This document shows, piece by piece, positions 2,167 through 33,159 of a DNA stretch of 33,159 nt. A model generated the notes under the pieces. The model was given only the letters and a program-made list of their open reading frames with translations, made no database searches and was not told the DNA's origin. The position numbers and the translations under genes are program-made. The stretch comes from Gammaproteobacteria bacterium. Its GTDB lineage: Bacteria > Pseudomonadota > Gammaproteobacteria > Thiohalospirales > Thiohalospiraceae. Position 1 is the first letter of the stretch, and every line of letters begins with the position of its first letter. The stretch covers positions 1 through 33,159 of the forward strand of contig JAJRUV010000195.1 of the NCBI GenBank assembly GCA_024277595.1. The letters run 5' to 3'.

Positions 2167-3618
2167 CTATCTGCGCCAGAAAGCCGGTGTCAGCAACACC
2201 AGCATGGTGAAGATCTCCAGCCGCCCCAGCAGCATGGCGAAGCAGAGCATCCATTTGGCAGGGTCGTTGATATCGCGGTAGTGCATGCCCACCTCCCCCA
2301 GCCCCGGACCCAGATTGTTCAGAGATGCCGCCACGGCGGAGAAGGCGGTCACCTGATCCAGACCAGTCATCATCAGACCCAGCATAATGATGCTGAAGAT
2401 CGCCACATAGGTGGCGAAAAAACCCCACACTGCCTCGATAACCTGGGGAGGCAAGGGTTTTCCTCCCACTTTGATCGGGATCTGGGCGGTAGGATGAATC
2501 AGGCGCTTCAGCTCACGGATCCCCTGCTTGAACAACAGCAGAAAACGGATCACCTTCATGCCACCCCCCGTCGAACCAGCAGACCCGCCGATGAAACTGA
2601 TAAAGATGAGCAGAACCGGCAGGAATCCCGGCCAGGCAAAATATTCTACAGTGGTAAATCCTGTCGTAGTACCGATCGAGATCACCTGAAACAGCCCGTG
2701 ATGCAACGTATCGCTAAAATCAGGGAAGGTTCCCATCAAATACAAATAACCAACGGTCACCACGCTGACCGCCGCCAGTATCAACAAATAGGTTTTACAC
2801 TCTGAATCCTGAAAATAGGGCCGGATGCTGGTAGAGCGCCAGGCCAGAAAATGCAGCGCGAAGTTGATGCCCGACAGCAGCATGAACACCACTGCCACCA
2901 TCTCGATAGCGGTGCTGTGGAAAAAACCGATACTCGCATCATGGGTGGAAAACCCGCCAATGGCGACAGTGGAAAAAGCGTGTGCAACGGCATCGAAAAC
3001 CCCCATGCCGGCCAGCCAGTAGGCAACCGCGCAGGCGATGGTAAGCCCCAGATAGATATACCACAGCGCCTTGGCGGTTTCGGTGATGCGCGGGGTAAGC
3101 TTGTTGTCCTTCATCGGCCCTGGTGTTTCGGCCCGATAGAGCTGCATGCCACCAATACCCAGCATCGGCAGGATAGCCACTGCCAGCACGATGATTCCCA
3201 TCCCGCCCAGCCACTGCAACTGCTGTCGATAGAAAAGGATGGAGTGTGGCAGATTGTCGATGCCGACAATCACCGTTGCGCCGGTGGTGGTTAACCCCGA
3301 AATGGATTCGAATACCGCATCGGTAAGCGACATGTGCGGCAACTCTGACAACATCAACGGAATGGCGCCAGAGGCACCCAGCACGGTCCAGAACAGCACC
3401 ACTACCACGAACCCGTCACGAAGACGCAACTCCTTGCGCTGATGCCGGACCGGAAACCAGAGCAGTCCGCCGGTAACCAGAATCAACACAAAGCCAAGCA
3501 GAAAGGGATACAACGCCCCATCCCCATAGAGCAGCGCGATAGCCGCCGGTGGCAGCATGGTACTGCTGAACAGCATCAGTAACAGGCCGACGATTCGCTG
3601 GATGACTGCGGGTTGCAT
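2167..3618 (-). CDS. trkH: Trk potassium uptake system membrane subunit TrkH
   Basis: The 483-residue inner-membrane protein has the usual length and hydrophobic profile of TrkH, a K+ channel-like transporter with four pseudo-repeated membrane-pore-membrane units. Filter-type loops can be read at SISGLTTTGATV, AFSTVAIGGFSTHD, VISIGTTTGFTT and AVAASLNNLGPGLG. Each carries the central glycine needed for K+ coordination. The C-terminus GRLEIFTMLVLLTPAFWRR is characteristic. It follows trkA by 17 bp in the same direction, so channel and gating subunit are co-expressed. In the family, NAD(H)- and ATP-responsive TrkA rings control opening. Confidence 0.95.
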   Translation of the reverse strand: MQPAVIQRIVGLLLMLFSSTMLPPAAIALLYGDGALYPFLLGFVLILVTGGLLWFPVRHQRKELRLRDGFVVVVLFWTVLGASGAIPLMLSELPHMSLTDAVFESISGLTTTGATVIVGIDNLPHSILFYRQQLQWLGGMGIIVLAVAILPMLGIGGMQLYRAETPGPMKDNKLTPRITETAKALWYIYLGLTIACAVAYWLAGMGVFDAVAHAFSTVAIGGFSTHDASIGFFHSTAIEMVAVVFMLLSGINFALHFLAWRSTSIRPYFQDSECKTYLLILAAVSVVTVGYLYLMGTFPDFSDTLHHGLFQVISIGTTTGFTTVEYFAWPGFLPVLLIFISFIGGSAGSTGGGMKVIRFLLLFKQGIRELKRLIHPTAQIPIKVGGKPLPPQVIEAVWGFFATYVAIFSIIMLGLMMTGLDQVTAFSAVAASLNNLGPGLGEVGMHYRDINDPAKWMLCFAMLLGRLEIFTMLVLLTPAFWRR

Positions 3619-3635
3619 GCCTGTTCAGACCAATT

Positions 3636-5012
3636 TCAGATAAAGGTCACATCTACCTGGAACAGCCGCTCAACCTCGGGAATATGGCGCTTGTCCACAA
3701 GAAACAGGATGATGTGATCTTCAGGTTCGATAATGGTGTCATGATGGGCAATGATAACCTCTTTGCCACGCACGATAGCACCGATGTTGGTTCCGGGAGG
3801 CAGTTTGAGTTGATCCACCGCCCGACCCACCACCCGGGAGGAGTCCGGATCACCATGCGCCACCGCCTCAATGGCCTCGGCGGCACCGCGGCGCAATGAG
3901 TGCACCACCACCACATCACCCCGCCGCACATGGGCCAGCAGACTGCCGATGGTGGACTGTTGCGGAGAAATGGCGATATCGATGTCGGTACTCTCTACCA
4001 GATCCACATAAGAAACCCGGTTGATTAGCGACATTACCTTGCGCGCGCCCATGCGCCTGGCCAGCATGGCAGAAAGAATATTGGCTTCATCATCACTGGT
4101 CAGGGCACAGAACACATCGGTATTTTCAATGTTCTCCTCCAGCAACAGCTCCTCATCTGCAGCATCCCCCAGCAGGACAATAGTTTTCTCCAGCTCTTCG
4201 GAGGCAACCCGGGCCTGCTCATGATTATGTTCAATTACCTTGACCTGGAAATGCGGCTCCAGAGCCTTGGCCAGCCGCTTGCCGATATTACCGGCCCCGG
4301 CAATGATGATCCGCTTGTAGGGTTTGTCCAGACGACGCAACTCACTCATTACCGCACGAACATGTTTTTTGGCAACGATGATAAACACCTCATCATCCAC
4401 CTCGATAACCGTATCCCCATCCGGAGTTACTGGTTTTCCACGCCGGAAAATGGCCGCCACCCGGGTATCCACCCCGGGCATGTGCTCACGCAGAGTGCGC
4501 AGCGCATGACCCACCAGCGGACCACCATAGTACGCCTTGACCGCCACCAGCTGCACCAGACCGTTGGCAAAATTAAGTACTTGCAATGCCCCCGGATGCT
4601 CGATGAGACGTTGAATATAGTCAGTCACCAACTGTTCAGGACTGATAAGAACATCGACCGGCAGTGAGTCCTGGGCAAACAGCTTTTCTTTGTGAGCCAG
4701 ATAACCCACCCCGCGCACCCGGGCAATTTTGGTGGGGGTGTGGAACAGCGTGTAGGCAACCTGACAGGCAACCATATTGGTCTCATCGCTGTTGGTAACA
4801 GCAATGATCATGTCGGCATCATCCGCTCCCGCCCGGCTCAACACATCAGGATAAGATGCCTGGCCGACCACGGTACGAATATCGAGACGATCCTGCAGAT
4901 TGTGCAGCCGCTCCGGCTCAGTATCGACAACGGTTATATCATTGGCTTCACTGGCAAGATTCGCCGCCAGGGAGGCCCCGACTTGGCCGGCGCCAAGAAT
5001 TATAATTTTCAT
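3636..5012 (-). CDS. trkA: Trk potassium uptake system NAD-binding regulatory subunit TrkA
   Basis: The 458-residue cytosolic protein has two tandem RCK units, each with a Rossmann nucleotide-binding part and a TrkA_C part. The first dinucleotide loop is [10 protein letters not shown] at residues 7-16 with acidic VVDTEPER; the second is [10 protein letters not shown] near residue 240. This is the normal double-RCK architecture and length (E. coli TrkA is 458 residues). It forms the gating ring for TrkH, encoded immediately downstream. ntrX lies 83 bp upstream in the same direction with no clear terminator between them, so one transcript from DUF4390 to the methyltransferase is likely. Confidence 0.95.
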
Positions 5013-5095
5013 TGGGGTAACAACAGTTCCTGTTCTTCAAGGCAGGGTAATTAATAACCCGGCCAGGATGGAGATCACTCACCTATTTCACCTAT

Positions 5096-6481
5096 CTACG
5101 ATTCGGTGCCCTTTCCGGCCAACTCCTTGTGATCAATGCCCAGAGTACGCAGTTTACGATACAAATGAGTGCGTTCGATACCCGCAATCCGGGCTACCTT
5201 TCCTACATTCCCATCCATCTTGCGCAACTGGCATTCCAGATAGGCTTTTTCGAAACGCTCTCTGGCCTCACGTAAGGGCAAATCAAAGTTGGGCTGAAAG
5301 ACAGACATGCCCGGAGAGGGGGGCGAACCAGCTCCCAGAACCGCTTCAACCTCATCCCGATCTATCTCGTCCCCGTTGCCGACAATCAGCAACCTTTGCA
5401 CCAGGTTGGTCAGTTCACGCACATTTCCCGGCCAGGGATAGTTGCGCAGATAATTTTGTGCCGCCACTGTAAAACTGCGATAGGAAAGGTTTTCACGCGT
5501 AGCAAAAAAATCAGCATAAAATGCCAGCAGCTCCGGTATATCCTCGCAATGCTCCCGCAAAGGGGGAATATGCAGTGGTAGTTCATTCAGTTTGTAATAG
5601 AGATCCTGGCGGAAACTCCCCTTGCTCACCAGTGGCTCCAGAGCATGATGCGTAGCAGCAATCACACGCACATCGGTTTGCACAGCATCCTGTCCATCGA
5701 CCCGGTGGAAACGCCGGTTTTGCAGCGCACTGTATAGACGGGCCTGGATTGATGCATCCATTTCGGCAACATCCTCCAGAAACAAAGTGCCTCCATTGGC
5801 CTGCTCCAGGCGCCCGAAACGTACCTGGCCGTTCCGCTCGCTGCCAAACAGCTCTTCGTTGGCATCCTCTTCACCAAAAGAAGCCACGCTTATTTCAATA
5901 AAAGGTGCCTCCCTGCGTGAACTCAGCTCATGCAAATAACGAGCAAACAGACGCTTGCCAGTGCCAGATTCCCCAGTTAAAAGAACACCATTTTCATGCT
6001 TTGCAAAACGGGTTATGCTCTCCCGCAGCTGGTGCATCAGCAGACTCTTGCCAACCGGCTCAATCCGGTGGGGCGAGTAGCGCCGCAGATCAATATTTTC
6101 CTTTTTCAGCTTGTCCGTATGCAGCGTATTTTCCACAGTCAGTAGCAGTTTAGCCAGTGACAGTGGTTTTTCAATAAAGTCATAGGCGCCCAGACGGGTC
6201 GCCTCGACGGCGGTTTCCACCGTTGCATGTCCGGACATGATAATTACCGGCATATCAAGTCCGTTTTCATCCGACCACTCCTTGAGCAGGGAAAGACCAT
6301 CAACATCCGGCATCCAGATATCCAGCAGCACCAGATCCGGACGCCTAAAGCGTCGCGCTCGCCGGGCTTGTTCAGCGTTTTCTGCCACCGAGACCTCATA
6401 ACCCTCTTCTTCCAGAATTTCCTGAACCAGGTGGCGAATTTCAGGTTCGTCATCCACGACTAATATATAAGGCGTACTCAT
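5096..6481 (-). CDS. ntrX: NtrX-type response regulator (receiver, AAA+, Fis-type HTH) lacking GAFTGA
   Basis: The 461-residue protein has a receiver domain (acidic Asp10/Asp11, phospho-acceptor Asp54 in LLDIWMP, Lys105), an AAA+ domain with Walker A GESGTGK at 170-176, and a C-terminal Fis-like helix-turn-helix (VARIAGIERTHLYRKLRTLGI). The arginine-finger region SFRQDLYYKLN is retained. The sigma-54 contact loop GAFTGA is absent: the segment runs ELFGSERNGQVRFGRLEQA, with NGQVRFG where GAFTGA should be. The Walker B acidic pair is also inverted (TLFLED instead of TLFLDE). By family knowledge, loss of GAFTGA argues against classical sigma-54 activation. The start overlaps the ntrY stop as ATGA, so sensor and regulator are translationally coupled. 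Confidence 0.9.
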   Translation of the reverse strand: MSTPYILVVDDEPEIRHLVQEILEEEGYEVSVAENAEQARRARRFRRPDLVLLDIWMPDVDGLSLLKEWSDENGLDMPVIIMSGHATVETAVEATRLGAYDFIEKPLSLAKLLLTVENTLHTDKLKKENIDLRRYSPHRIEPVGKSLLMHQLRESITRFAKHENGVLLTGESGTGKRLFARYLHELSSRREAPFIEISVASFGEEDANEELFGSERNGQVRFGRLEQANGGTLFLEDVAEMDASIQARLYSALQNRRFHRVDGQDAVQTDVRVIAATHHALEPLVSKGSFRQDLYYKLNELPLHIPPLREHCEDIPELLAFYADFFATRENLSYRSFTVAAQNYLRNYPWPGNVRELTNLVQRLLIVGNGDEIDRDEVEAVLGAGSPPSPGMSVFQPNFDLPLREARERFEKAYLECQLRKMDGNVGKVARIAGIERTHLYRKLRTLGIDHKELAGKGTES

Positions 6482-28925: not shown

Positions 28926-29918
28926 TTACGCCCGGCCAAACCGAAGATGCCGCCATAGCCCGCTCCCGGCGAAGAAAAAGAATATCGGCCCGCCCGCCAA
29001 CAGATACCAGTAGTAAGTGGCAAAACGCCACGCAATCAGTGCAGCGGCGAGAGTAGCGGGATCCAGCCAGGGCGCAAGCAGAGCGCTGAAACCAATCTCA
29101 ACCCCGCCACTGCCTCCGGGTAGCAAAGTAAGTTGGCCAATACTGAGAACAAACATCTGCACTAGAAACAGGTAGGCCCAGGATAGATTTCCTCCCAACT
29201 CACGAATAATGAAGTACAGGATGGTATAGCGCAGCAACCAGTGACCAATACAGAGCAGGTAGATAAACAGCAACCGCCAACGAGACAGGCGGAGCATCAA
29301 ACCAATCCCCTGCCGGAAACGGATAATCCAGCGCGCAACCTTGCGACGACGTCTGGACGCAATCCCGAACCGGTTCAGCAATCGGCCACCGAGCAGCATA
29401 ACGGAACGATAATGGTGAGCCAGTAACCAGAGCATACCCAGCCCTCCGCCAATCATTCCCCCCAACAGAACAAGCTGGGTGCCAACATGAAACTCATCCC
29501 CACCCGCCAGCAGAACAACGGAAAGAAGAATCAGGGCAGGCAGGAAAAAGAGAAGATCCAGCAACTGTTCAAGCGCATAACAGGCAGCAGCGTGACTACT
29601 CGCAAGACCATGGCGGTGCAGCAGGAAAATATAGGTCAATGCTCCGCCGGTACCGGCTGGCGTTGCGCTCATGGCAAACTCGGATGACATGATGGTCGCC
29701 AGCGCCTTGCTCTGCCCCATGCGTACACCGGTGCCACCCAGCACCAGCCGCAGACGTGCGGCATTCAGATTCCAACCCAGCACTACCATCACCAGCGCAC
29801 TGCTTATTAGCCCCAACGGCAGTTCACGCAGACGACTCAATCCATCCCAGCCGCCATAGCTCAACGGGATCAGCAGGCCAGCAAGCAGGGCAACAAGAAA
29901 AATATGCCAGAAACGCAT
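28926..29918 (-). CDS. Integral membrane protein of the LPG synthase TM / UPF0104 (YbhN-like) family
   Basis: The protein is about 330 residues with eight or so membrane helices. Family features are SEFAMSATPAGTGGALTYIFLLHRHG near residue 80-105 and LTLLPGGSGGVEIGFSALLAPW near 260-280. Relatives include the flippase-like domain of MprF and YbhN-type proteins, suggesting lipid movement or modification, but the catalytic half of MprF is absent, so no specific substrate is assigned. ATG 29918 is preferred to GTG 29927 because GGTGG precedes it. It converges on the rhodanese gene with a 57-bp spacer containing an eight-C run (28872-28879). Confidence 0.8.
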   Translation of the reverse strand: MRFWHIFLVALLAGLLIPLSYGGWDGLSRLRELPLGLISSALVMVVLGWNLNAARLRLVLGGTGVRMGQSKALATIMSSEFAMSATPAGTGGALTYIFLLHRHGLASSHAAACYALEQLLDLLFFLPALILLSVVLLAGGDEFHVGTQLVLLGGMIGGGLGMLWLLAHHYRSVMLLGGRLLNRFGIASRRRRKVARWIIRFRQGIGLMLRLSRWRLLFIYLLCIGHWLLRYTILYFIIRELGGNLSWAYLFLVQMFVLSIGQLTLLPGGSGGVEIGFSALLAPWLDPATLAAALIAWRFATYYWYLLAGGPIFFFFAGSGLWRHLRFGRA

Positions 29919-30089
29919 CAATACCACCGATAGAGATTAAACCAGAAATAATTATTCCACATCTGTTTACCTGCTACTGGGTACTATGAATCAGAATTAA
30001 CATTTTTTGTGATTATCTGGCCGGGAGCAGGCTCGGTAGTTGAGAAACGCGGGCGAAAGACAGAATTTTGCAGTTTATAGTGATTAGTG

Positions 30090-30210
30090 GTAACTACTCA
30101 GCTTGTCCCTGAAATTCGCCAGATCAAGGCGAAAAATGTGAGTTTACAAGGGTAAATGACCATTTTTTAACGTGGAAATGGTGGATTTCAGGGGCAAGCT
30201 GAGTAGTTAC
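30090..30210. mobile_element. MITE-like element with GTAACTACTCAGC ends (121 bp)
   Basis: The ends are near-perfect inverted repeats of about 31 bp (GTAACTACTCAGCTTG, then TCCCTGAAATTCGCC against CCCCTGAAATCCACC). The flanking 8-mers are GATTAGTG (30082-30089) and CATTAGTG (30211-30218), an 8-bp target duplication with one mismatch. There is no open reading frame of note. The GTAA tips and 8-bp duplication again fit IS66-type ends, but the inner sequence differs from copies A and B, so it is a separate family. Its right duplication includes the first base of copy B, showing that it inserted at the edge of copy B afterwards. Confidence 0.8.
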
Positions 30211-30217
30211 CATTAGT

Positions 30218-30348
30218 GTAACTATTTACCACAGAGAACACGACGGTTATGATTTCAATGCGCAAAATGGTTGATATTGAAATTCTGGCAAACCTTGATC
30301 GCACACATGATCGGTTTTTTCTTCGTACGCTTCGTGGTAAATAGTTAC
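30218..30348 (-). mobile_element. MITE-like element, GTAAC family, copy B (131 bp)
   Basis: The ends are GTAACTATTTACCAC and its exact inverse GTGGTAAATAGTTAC. Read on the minus strand it matches copy A (12470-12627) over most of its length. If the neighbouring 121-bp element is removed, copy B is flanked by TGATTAGT on the left (30081-30088) and TGATTAGT on the right (30349-30356), a perfect 8-bp target duplication. Its ends are better preserved than those of copy A. No coding capacity. Confidence 0.85.
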
Positions 30349-30386: not shown

Positions 30387-31088
30387 CTAAAATTCAAATA
30401 GCAACCCTGCCTGATAGCTGATGCCACCCAGCTCGACAGGATCCGAACCGATTTCAACGCTGCTGCGCTGCACCTCCAGGAAAAAATAGCTGTTATTTAC
30501 ACCAAAACTCTCGTAAAAACCCCAGGCAGTGCTCCGATCAATATTGTCGAGCAAAAGCTGTAAGCCGCCGCGAATGTGTGTTCCGGTTGCATCGCCACGG
30601 CGTTTTTCCTGGCCACCAATATCCTGTTCATAATAAATACGGCTCCATCCTGCCCCTAGATAGGGTACCAGCCACTGATTTTCGCTGAAAACACCTCTCA
30701 CCAGGGCAAACAGCTGAACAGGATAGAGTTCAAGAGTCACTTTGCCGGTAATCTGTTCCTGTTGTGGGGCCAACCCTTTTCCCTTGTCTTTGATATAGGA
30801 ACCGTCAATGCCAACCTCGAACTGACGAGTTACCTTGTAGGCAATCGCCCCACTGATCTGACCGGTCTTGTCATCACCATAATAGGCCTCCCAGTTATCC
30901 TCCCCGGGAAAGAAGTTTCCGCCCTTGATCTCCAGTGACCAGCGGGGTGGCTGCTGCGATGTTCCAGAGGCCAGGCCAATCAATGGAAACAGTGACAGCA
31001 ACAACAGAATCCACTTCCCGCACAAAACTTCCCCCGGTCTGCCCCGTGTATCTGCTTGCTCCGAACTTACTGCAACGATTGTTTTCAT
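30387..31088 (-). CDS. Predicted outer-membrane beta-barrel protein
   Basis: The protein is up to 233 residues. A hydrophobic export segment (WILLLLSLFPLIGLASG) is followed by alternating beta-strand sequence with many aromatic and glycine residues (WSLEIKGGNFFPG, QFEVGIDGSYI, VTLELYPVQLFALV, WLVPYLGAGWSRIYYEQDI, GGLQLLLD, FFLEVQRSSVEI). The terminal Phe is the outer-membrane assembly signature (YQAGLLFEF). It resembles small OmpW/OprF-N-type barrels; no exact family is recognised. The ATG at 31088 overlaps the upstream stop as ATGA after AGGGAAGA, indicating coupling. It leaves an unusual 24-residue polar stretch before the export segment; a TTG at 31025 after GGGGGAAG would give a standard signal peptide. 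A CCTGAA/TTCAGG hairpin (30362-30380) lies just downstream. Confidence 0.75.
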   Translation of the reverse strand: MKTIVAVSSEQADTRGRPGEVLCGKWILLLLSLFPLIGLASGTSQQPPRWSLEIKGGNFFPGEDNWEAYYGDDKTGQISGAIAYKVTRQFEVGIDGSYIKDKGKGLAPQQEQITGKVTLELYPVQLFALVRGVFSENQWLVPYLGAGWSRIYYEQDIGGQEKRRGDATGTHIRGGLQLLLDNIDRSTAWGFYESFGVNNSYFFLEVQRSSVEIGSDPVELGGISYQAGLLFEF

Positions 31089-32839
31089 TCTTCCCTCGGG
31101 ATGGAGTACGGATTTTTGCATGAAATCAGCCCTGCTATTGTAACCAATAATGCACCCAGCACCATTAACGATGCCAGGTAAAACAGCGAACCGTTAAGCA
31201 TGATATCCGCAATCACTATCAGCGGAAACAGCGCCGCCCTTGCCATCAGTTTGTTCTCCGGGTGGGCGTCAAGCCAGTGCGCGACCGTCGGGCCATACGT
31301 GTAGTACCAGCGAACAAACACCTTGCCCGGCGCATGGGTGAGCAGGTAGCGATCCCGGAAATCACGCAACAGTTGCACCTGGGGAGCAGAGTAGTACCCG
31401 TAGGCGGCGGTTGCAACGAAGCATCCTTCATCCGGCAGATCGGGGTAGGGTTCGAGGGCTTCGGGGAAAGCGGTCACTTCGTTGGAGAGCGGGCTTTGCA
31501 TTACCGGTCCCACGCTGGCTTTTACTATGCTCTCATCAGCAAACACACTTTCATTGCGGTTACTGGTGGTATCGTAAACAGTAACGCCAAAATAGTATTC
31601 CGCCTGACTGTACGCGGTCACTGCCATACGATAGATGACCTCGTTTTGCAGACCGGTAATACGGTAGGAGGTGCTGTTGCCGACATCTATCTTCTGTTCT
31701 TCGACCGAATTGATGCCATAATGCACCTTGTAACCTGCGGCTCCACTCACCGCTGACCATGCAATCTGCAGCGCCTGATGCAATGGCGCCGGTTTTCCGG
31801 CTGTCGGCGCGCTCAATCCGGCCGGGGTTGGCAGCGCCAGCCCGGTCAATGGATAGCTGGTAACCTTGCCAGCATCAATCGGGGAAACCCCTTCAGCCGC
31901 ATCGCTCCCCTGAAAATTCTTGCCACTGCCGTAGTGCAGTTTGTAACCCGCAGCAAGATAGGAAAAATTCGCTGACCATTTTACGGTCACGGAGTCGGCG
32001 CCATCACTTATGACACTCAGGCCGGATACGGGAAAGGGAGTGGCATCGGCATAAGACCCTCCATAGGCACCCATATCCGCCCGGGTGCCATTAATAGCAT
32101 CAGTGTCATTTTCATCCCCTTTATCGATACCCCCGGACAATGCGCGCAGATGAAAATCCCGATCATCTATACTGATAAACTTAAGCGATTTGTTCAGCAG
32201 AGCATGTGTGCCAACCGGGCCATCGTCATCATTGTTGAGAAAACCGTTATAACTGATATTTTCTGTCAGGTCGGCCGAAGCAATCGCAGTACCGTTTTCA
32301 TAGAACAGATTGCTGCGGACAGTGACACCATCGCTTTCTCTGCTGAGGGCAGTACCGTTTTCATAGAAGGTATTATTGATTATCTCTGCGATGGCAGAAT
32401 CCAGTGTCATCACTGCAGTTCCCGCTTTCCCGGTATGGAACACATTACCGGCGACGATGATATCCGCGCTACCCGAGACCCGCACACCAACCGAGGCATC
32501 GACAAAAGTAAAATTGCTGACCCGCGCATCGACAACACCATCAGCGGTGATAACAGGGGCGTCATCGTTACCTTCGAGCAGGGTCCGTGCTGTCTCCTGG
32601 CCGCGCAAGACAATGTTGCTGCGCAGGGTAAGGCTCTCTCGATAGGTATCCGGCTTCACTACTACGGTGTCACCCGGCTGGCTGGCATCGATAGCCGCCT
32701 GAATGGTTTTGTAATCGCCAGGAACCGTCCGTTCTGCAGCATGAAGTAACGTGCTAAACAGCAGTACAATAATGAAAACGAGCAGCTCACCCATCTGCTC
32801 AAAGATGCCCGGAAGCCGCCACCTTGTAAATCTTGTCAT
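31085..32839 (-). CDS. Exported parallel beta-helix protein with Fn3-like domains and CFI-box C-terminus
   Basis: The protein is about 584 residues. After a signal peptide (LLVFIIVLLFSTLLHA, cleavage near AAERTV) comes a right-handed parallel beta-helix of about 200 residues, starting TVPGDYKTIQAAIDASQPGDTVVV and containing coils such as NNTFYENGTALSRES. Two Fn3-like domains follow, each with a GYKLHYG or GYKVHYG strand. The C-terminus carries CFVATAAYGYYSAPQVQLL, then FRDRYLL, PGKVFVRWYYTYGP and a last membrane segment, matching the CFI-box C-terminal domain of surface proteins. It is probably a surface or periplasmic carbohydrate- or surface-binding protein; no catalytic residues are evident. 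The start is an ATG at 32839 or a GTG at 32854. It is coupled to the barrel gene by ATGA. Confidence 0.8.
   Translation of the reverse strand: MTRFTRWRLPGIFEQMGELLVFIIVLLFSTLLHAAERTVPGDYKTIQAAIDASQPGDTVVVKPDTYRESLTLRSNIVLRGQETARTLLEGNDDAPVITADGVVDARVSNFTFVDASVGVRVSGSADIIVAGNVFHTGKAGTAVMTLDSAIAEIINNTFYENGTALSRESDGVTVRSNLFYENGTAIASADLTENISYNGFLNNDDDGPVGTHALLNKSLKFISIDDRDFHLRALSGGIDKGDENDTDAINGTRADMGAYGGSYADATPFPVSGLSVISDGADSVTVKWSANFSYLAAGYKLHYGSGKNFQGSDAAEGVSPIDAGKVTSYPLTGLALPTPAGLSAPTAGKPAPLHQALQIAWSAVSGAAGYKVHYGINSVEEQKIDVGNSTSYRITGLQNEVIYRMAVTAYSQAEYYFGVTVYDTTSNRNESVFADESIVKASVGPVMQSPLSNEVTAFPEALEPYPDLPDEGCFVATAAYGYYSAPQVQLLRDFRDRYLLTHAPGKVFVRWYYTYGPTVAHWLDAHPENKLMARAALFPLIVIADIMLNGSLFYLASLMVLGALLVTIAGLISCKNPYSIPREE
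32286..32368 (-). repeat. Direct repeat of one beta-helix coil (63-bp period)
   Basis: The 20-bp sequence GCAGTACCGTTTTCATAGAA occurs at 32286-32305 and again at 32349-32368, exactly 63 bp apart. It encodes FYENGTA twice, 21 residues apart, which is one turn of the beta-helix. This points to recent coil duplication inside the gene. Confidence 0.85.
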
Positions 32840-32951
32840 AGCGTGTTTTTCCACGTTTCAGGAGATCGTGTTGTTGAACAGCGATCCGGTATCTCTTGAA
32901 TACATACAGCGGCTTCTGCATTATTTGAACTCAAGTTCCGGAGTTCATTAG

Positions 32952-32999: not shown

Positions 33000-33159
33000 A
33001 ACAACCACCAGCTAAAGCTGGTGGGTTAGTCTTATGGGCTGAAAGTCCGGATACGGGTCGAAAGACCCGTTTAGTCTTCAGTTCTGAAATTATCATCAAC
33101 CTTTGGCTCAAAGTGATGCTCCAAATATTCTTTTATCATCTCTTCCGTCAGTTCTCCCG
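33000..33159 (-). mobile_element. Right end of an IS200/IS605-type insertion sequence, truncated by window edge
   Basis: Two hairpins follow the tnpA stop: ACGGGTC/GACCCGT with loop GAAA (33053-33070) and the terminal CCACCAGC/GCTGGTGG with loop TAAA (33005-33024). The terminal hairpin near the element edge is the right-end recognition structure of this family. The outer boundary is a few bases to the left, around 32990-33002. The orientation is the same as in the fragment at the left edge of the window. Confidence 0.75.
33071..33159 (-). CDS. tnpA: IS200/IS605 family Y1 transposase TnpA, C-terminal fragment (runs off the window)
   Basis: The last 28 codons are visible, stop TAA at 33071-33073, and include LTEEMIKEYLEHHFEP and DDNFRTED. 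This is the C-terminal helix and tail common in IS200-type TnpA, just after the region holding the catalytic tyrosine. No disruption in the visible part. With the N-terminal fragment at 1-45 it would belong to the same kind of transposase; whether the copies are identical cannot be judged because the fragments do not overlap. Confidence 0.75.
   Translation of the reverse strand, partial: GELTEEMIKEYLEHHFEPKVDDNFRTED

Follow-up and report, generated by a model that had tools for sequence, protein, structure and literature searches.

In this study, we describe two overlapping genes, here called A and B, whose products almost certainly work together, probably as an adhesin or receptor at the cell surface and its partner in the membrane. 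A encodes a putatively exported protein that combines a beta-helix, nested Fn3 domains and a CFI-box with a C-terminal membrane segment, and B encodes a small outer-membrane beta-barrel protein. The two genes are adjacent wherever they were found in Gammaproteobacteria, across lineages with unrelated flanking genes, and at one locus they are fused.

Organization of the locus

The window, that is, the whole stretch of 33,159 nt analysed here, corresponds to an entire contig (C169) from a gammaproteobacterial genome of 2.5 Mb in 196 contigs. The pair lies on the minus strand at the contig end, and the contig stops ~320 nt upstream of A. The features are the following.

31085–32839, minus strand: gene A, beta-helix, nested Fn3 and CFI-box protein with C-terminal membrane segment, putatively exported (584 aa from ATG 32839)
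32735–32839, minus strand: signal peptide region of A (hydrophobic core ending LLHAAE in the sequence; AF2 helix 11–31)
32147–32734, minus strand: right-handed beta-helix of A, residues 36–231 (Pfam PF13229, 5.8e-9, and NosD; AF2 pLDDT ~90)
31835–32017, minus strand: outer Fn3-like domain of A, part 1, residues 275–335 (AF2 strands 275–332; family-conserved GYKLYY...SPIDVG...T)
31601–31834, minus strand: inner Fn3 domain of A, inserted into the outer one, residues 336–413 (Pfam PF00041, 1.2e-7)
31469–31600, minus strand: outer Fn3-like domain of A, part 2, residues 414–457 (AF2 strands 414–423, 438–448, 455–457)
31217–31423, minus strand: CFI-box domain of A, residues 473–541, with invariant Cys473 (NF041770, CFI_box_CTERM, 91 bits, cut-off 40)
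31121–31261, minus strand: two C-terminal hydrophobic helices of A, residues 527–573, then a short tail (hydropathy; AF2 helices 527–549 and 551–573)
31085–31088, minus strand: ATGA stop/start overlap of A and B (sequence)
30387–31088, minus strand: gene B, small outer-membrane beta-barrel protein with signal peptide (233 aa, ending LLFEF)
30390–30944, minus strand: eight-stranded barrel of B, residues 49–233 (AF2 strands 50–61, 75–85, 90–106, 113–131, 140–157, 163–179, 199–213, 222–232)

The open reading frame of A spans 31085–32854, with GTG 32854 or ATG 32839 as possible starts and its stop at 31085. The ATGA overlap reported in the initial annotation is confirmed with ATG 31088 as the start of B (MKTIVAV); the start of the longest frame, 31121, would give an overlap of 37 nt. 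As the same ATGA recurs in relatives, namely in five of the six sister-species pairs (L031, L032, L034, L035 and L036) and also in L039 and L110, the overlap is not an accident of the choice of start.

The pair had also been described as isolated between mobile elements and away from housekeeping genes, which is true only in part: inverted repeats lie downstream and hairpins with an ORF end upstream, but the contig ends ~320 nt from A, and a flippase gene, found after B in the sister species as well, is located ~460 nt downstream of B. The two imperfect inverted repeats between B and this gene (30085–30215 and 30218–30348) have arms of 52 nt (81%) and 26 nt (81%), are MITE-like, and are absent from all other fetched loci. 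At the contig end upstream of A, positions 33005–33159 hold two hairpins and the ORF end (GELTEEMIKEYLEHHFEPKVDDNFRTED), resembling the end of an IS200-type element, although the 28 residues of the ORF end matched nothing in Pfam. The flippase gene (28926–29927) encodes a relative of the glucosaminyl-phosphatidylglycerol flippase (NF053789, 308 bits, just below the cut-off of 320) and follows B throughout the genus.

Domain architecture of A

The composition first read from the sequence of A, with a beta-helix, Fn3-like domains, a CFI-box C-terminus and a final membrane segment, is borne out by Pfam, NCBIfam, hydropathy and an AF2 model. This model, built with 10 sequences, has a mean pLDDT of 80 and a pTM of 0.47, the inter-domain arrangement being unreliable. 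Pfam scores a single Fn3 domain, and the alignment together with the model reveals a second one, into which the scored domain is inserted, with one continuous strand (403–423) joining the inner to the outer domain. In the model, the inner Fn3 domain occupies residues 351–413, and the helices of the CFI-box are located at residues 474–525. A Foldseek search with the whole of A returned Fn3 proteins only, with very low TM-scores, and was uninformative on the CFI-box.

In the alignment, the relatives of A retain the beta-helix, nested-Fn3 and CFI layout, and the tail that follows the C-terminal helices is basic in most of them. The CFI-box cysteine is the only one kept in all 22 aligned proteins; two further cysteines, located in the beta-helix, are present or absent together, as a disulfide would be. 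The best PDB sequence matches of the beta-helix are PfbA-type surface beta-helix adhesins of streptococci, the first being 3zpp, a pneumococcal surface-anchored beta-helix protein (1.1e-9), followed by 4mr0 (2.3e-7); the likeness covers one helix stretch (~85 residues), and both anchoring and host differ. One homologue of A (L116, 4921–6990) has a degenerate CFI-box in which ATAAYG is lost and the cysteine kept; the called ORF also has a GreB-like sequence, matching NCBIfam greB, in frame ahead of this homologue.

B is a narrow outer-membrane barrel

B belongs to a named family, since it matches the NCBIfam model NF040596 (MXAN_2562 family) above cut-off (121.5 bits against 100), over model positions 1–208 of 208. 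Its relatives in the genus score 119.6–125.3 bits, and all 19 B relatives match at E<=0.001. The AF2 model (mean pLDDT 78, pTM 0.69) is an eight-stranded barrel, the best PDB matches of which, by Foldseek, are OmpA (1e-8) and NspA (2e-7), with OprF, Ail and OmpW also found. The C-terminal LLFEF is an outer-membrane C-terminal signature. The initial reading of B as ending like an outer-membrane barrel is sustained by the family match and the eight modelled strands. An OmpA-type peptidoglycan-binding domain was not found in B with Pfam, and in the model the protein stops at the last barrel strand.

It had been suggested that the barrel could anchor, export or display A. Translocators of the FhaC type have 16 strands, and the lumen of an eight-stranded barrel of the OmpA/NspA type is too narrow for protein passage. 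Export of A through B is therefore rejected on the fold of B, which is too small, while anchoring or displaying A is plausible. A beta-helix gene beside a barrel gene superficially resembles a TpsA–TpsB pair, so that B might be taken for a translocator or secretion pore serving A in the style of two-partner secretion. However, a TpsB-type protein is a 16-stranded Omp85 translocator with POTRA domains, whereas B has eight strands, OmpA and NspA as best matches and no POTRA, and no TPS domain was detected in A with Pfam; we regard this reading as highly improbable.

A and B occur together across Gammaproteobacteria

The coupling of A and B proposed in the initial annotation was examined outside the source genome, and it was found there: B lies directly after A in 23 of 23 loci from 21 gammaproteobacterial genomes, and one further argument comes from a fusion. 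The adjacency was recovered from both sides. When a species-level genome collection was searched with A, each of the nine full-length relatives (9/9) had B as the next gene. When B alone was used, as an HMM built from nine barrels (profile A4), the barrel was found in 13 of 369 sampled Gammaproteobacteria; of the 13 genomes belonging to the same order as that of L039, 4 had it. The gene upstream was A at every B-side locus fetched, and between its end and the start of B lie anything from a few bases to some tens. The 13 class-wide genomes with the pair span seven families (f1, f120, f121, f137, f158, f174 and f182), and the lowest pairwise identity among members is 27% for A and 22% for B. Flanking genes are common only within lineages and differ between them, so that shared synteny is not the reason for the adjacency of A and B.

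Locus L037 has a natural in-frame fusion (3200–5701): a single open frame of 833 codons runs through A and B, with no stop at the junction. A basic stretch at the junction is followed by a second segment that resembles a signal peptide and ends AGAQ. The fusion may be a polyprotein that is processed internally, or else reflect an indel in the assembly.

Operons can hold unrelated genes, and within the genus the wider neighbourhood of the pair is conserved too, which would fit two genes brought together by chance or by regional shared ancestry, with no joint function. Set against this are the obligate adjacency in all 23 loci at identities down to 22–27%, the unrelated flanks in different families and the fusion, and such a coincidence can hardly be credited. 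The distances among A proteins and among B proteins are also correlated (r=0.60 without genus repeats; Mantel 0/5000), which speaks of joint inheritance and not of contact, as joint inheritance alone can explain the correlation.

A phylum-wide search with NF040596 (E<=1e-10) gave the window's genome as the sole match among 398; either profile A4, which found more, is more sensitive, or the sample differed. No relative was found when viral_contigs was scanned with gene A. Among plasmids, tblastn gave no match with B and, with A, CFI-box or short beta-helix matches only, with zero pairs.

Relation to known two-gene systems

In Myxococcus, MXAN_2561 and MXAN_2562 are neighbours by locus tag and, like A and B, represent an anchored protein followed by a barrel. 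B itself is a member of the MXAN_2562 family. As for A, 12 of 21 proteins weakly match the MXAN_2561 model NF045522 over its Fn3 part (best 3.9e-8); the protein from the window scores 19.1 bits, over the Fn3 part only and far from the cut-off of 150, and falls outside the MXAN_2561 family. The inner Fn3 domain alone gives a weak match (2.3e-5), and human Fn3-10 and two other CFI-box proteins give none at all, so that the match of A is not one that any Fn3 or CFI-box protein would produce. The two proteins differ in that MXAN_2561 ends in MYXO-CTERM and A in a CFI-box, and the beta-helix of A lies outside the NF045522 match. From its sequence, A is thus a CFI-box protein and neither an MXAN_2561 member nor a JDVT-CTERM or MYXO-CTERM protein.

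A second parallel is offered by TraA and TraB, which act in outer membrane exchange in Myxococcus: the two reading frames overlap, and TraA, which depends on TraB, forms 1:1 complexes with it (PMC11980579, PMC12045341). MXAN_5598 is a natural fusion of adhesin, sorting tag and barrel (PMC11980579, PMC12045341). A and B share with them the overlapping genes and the order of a putatively exported receptor or adhesin with a C-terminal membrane segment and then an outer-membrane barrel, and the fusion at L037 has the same layout as MXAN_5598. TraB, however, has an OmpA peptidoglycan-binding domain and a TSP3 linker, whereas B has neither, and A showed no sequence homology to TraA. A tentative and rather doubtful proposal is that A and B are an as yet undescribed equivalent of TraAB in Gammaproteobacteria. 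The two would serve as a receptor in cell contact or adhesion, and the CFI-box of A, whose invariant cysteine is unpaired, would replace MYXO-CTERM as the device docking A at the barrel.

In the literature searched, we found neither a description of the pair as a system nor papers on the CFI-box, MXAN_2561 or MXAN_2562. The earlier characterization of the locus as an uncharacterised surface system is therefore to be qualified: the system is absent from that literature, but its barrel family already has a name in NCBIfam. The best reading of the pair is that of an anchored surface protein with its cognate outer-membrane barrel, not described before in the literature searched.

The CFI-box and the location of A

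The CFI-box is not confined to the pair. It is also the C-terminus of secreted M6-type metalloproteases, of DUF11-like or SBBP-like proteins and, on plasmids, of a cold-shock-domain protein and a TPR protein that have neither signal peptide nor TM segment. The role of the CFI-box thus extends beyond export, and it was rejected as a surface-sorting tag by itself. The plasmid set, in which all proteins lack a signal peptide and a TM segment, comprises L140 (2153–2734), L141 (1333–2184) and L142 (2875–3309): one protein with a cold-shock domain, one with TPR and a short protein encoded next to an S49 peptidase. A survey of whether this barrel regularly comes after CFI-box beta-helix genes showed that the rule is true of the beta-helix/nested-Fn3/CFI family, but not of CFI-box genes generally, the CFI-box being widespread on unrelated secreted and cytosolic proteins.

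These observations bear on where A resides. A could be retained in the inner membrane and extend through the periplasm to the inward face of B, where its binding would tether the two membranes or sense the state of the envelope, with no display at the surface. The C-terminal hydrophobic helices of A, the absence of a recognised surface-sorting tag and the fact that the CFI-box by itself is no export tag agree with such an envelope-spanning link, and the basic stretch HLGRRGAGRRGASVR that precedes the second signal-like segment in the L037 fusion suggests a cytoplasmic tail of A and its insertion in the inner membrane. Beta-helix and Fn3 domains, however, are typical of surface and secreted proteins, and the weak homology to MXAN_2561, whose annotation gives it a MYXO-CTERM anchor, likewise favours the surface. 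We consider the envelope link possible, though unlikely.

A model for the pair

We favour a two-gene surface adhesin or receptor module in which B is the outer-membrane partner of A, and hold it to be fairly probable. Both proteins would be exported by Sec. A would first be held in the inner membrane through its C-terminal hydrophobic segment, with the beta-helix, the nested Fn3 domains and the CFI-box in the periplasm, and B would fold into the outer membrane as a narrow eight-stranded barrel. A would then reach the outer membrane, probably its outer surface, where B, in putative contact with it as its dedicated partner, would anchor and position it as TraB partners TraA in Myxococcus. The beta-helix would face outward and might bind a glycan or another surface. 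Against such a module, A carries no MYXO-CTERM or other known tag leading to the surface, CFI-boxes also end cytosolic proteins, and B does not have the OmpA peptidoglycan-binding domain of TraB; A might never leave the inner membrane and meet B only on its periplasmic face.

With this module, CFI-box-CTERM and MXAN_2562, two families that are named but unexplained, become one testable system, in which the CFI-box would gain its first defined molecular partner. The pair has been kept in at least seven families of Gammaproteobacteria, with the natural fusion as proof of linkage, and suggests that a TraAB-like layout of anchored adhesin and outer-membrane barrel is used well outside the myxobacteria.

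The MrtJ neighbourhood

In the window's genus, the pair adjoins a JDVT-CTERM/MrtJ system, of which MrtJ is the intramembrane protease. In the sister species, the genes preceding A encode a JDVT-CTERM protein with repeats of the FG-GAP and TSP3 types, a protein resembling OmpA, MrtJ, and a protein of 220 aa that has a single N-terminal TM segment and no family match. The JDVT-CTERM protein scores 39 bits with NF033191 (cut-off 27) and MrtJ 103–111 bits with NF033192 (cut-off 75). MrtJ was not found in the window's genome, most likely because the contig breaks just upstream of A. A itself is no JDVT-CTERM protein: it matches neither the JDVT-CTERM nor the MYXO-CTERM model, and its conserved cysteine does not lie directly before a TM helix, as the cysteine motif does in those tags, where a basic tail comes after the helix.

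This proximity raises the question of whether A is a substrate of MrtJ, or of another sorting enzyme, in which case the CFI-box cysteine would be lipidated, the C-terminal helices cut, and A moved to the surface and held there by B. Besides the position of MrtJ and the JDVT-CTERM gene directly upstream of A in the genus, MrtJ is above cut-off in 9 of 13 genomes with the pair against 43 of 356 without it (369 sampled; Fisher p=5e-6, a lead only, as the genomes are not independent and phylogeny, which the test ignores, may explain part of the enrichment). The CFI-box cysteine, moreover, is the only one that the all-or-none pair of the beta-helix does not account for. On the other side, the conserved cysteine lies ~60 residues before the C-terminal helices, unlike in JDVT-CTERM or MYXO-CTERM, CFI-boxes exist without any membrane segment, and outside the genus MrtJ is unlinked to the pair or absent. 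Since MrtJ is absent from 5 of the 14 pair genomes tested (G614, G509, G456, G438 and G431), some of them nearly complete, it is held unlikely to be the processing enzyme of A, and the substrate reading as a whole is, in our judgement, improbable. Within the genus, the conserved cluster of JDVT-CTERM, OmpA-like, MrtJ and 220-aa genes directly upstream of A (L023, 3258–8556; L025, 1–3449) is larger than the two-gene JDVT/MrtJ neighbourhood of PMC11980579.
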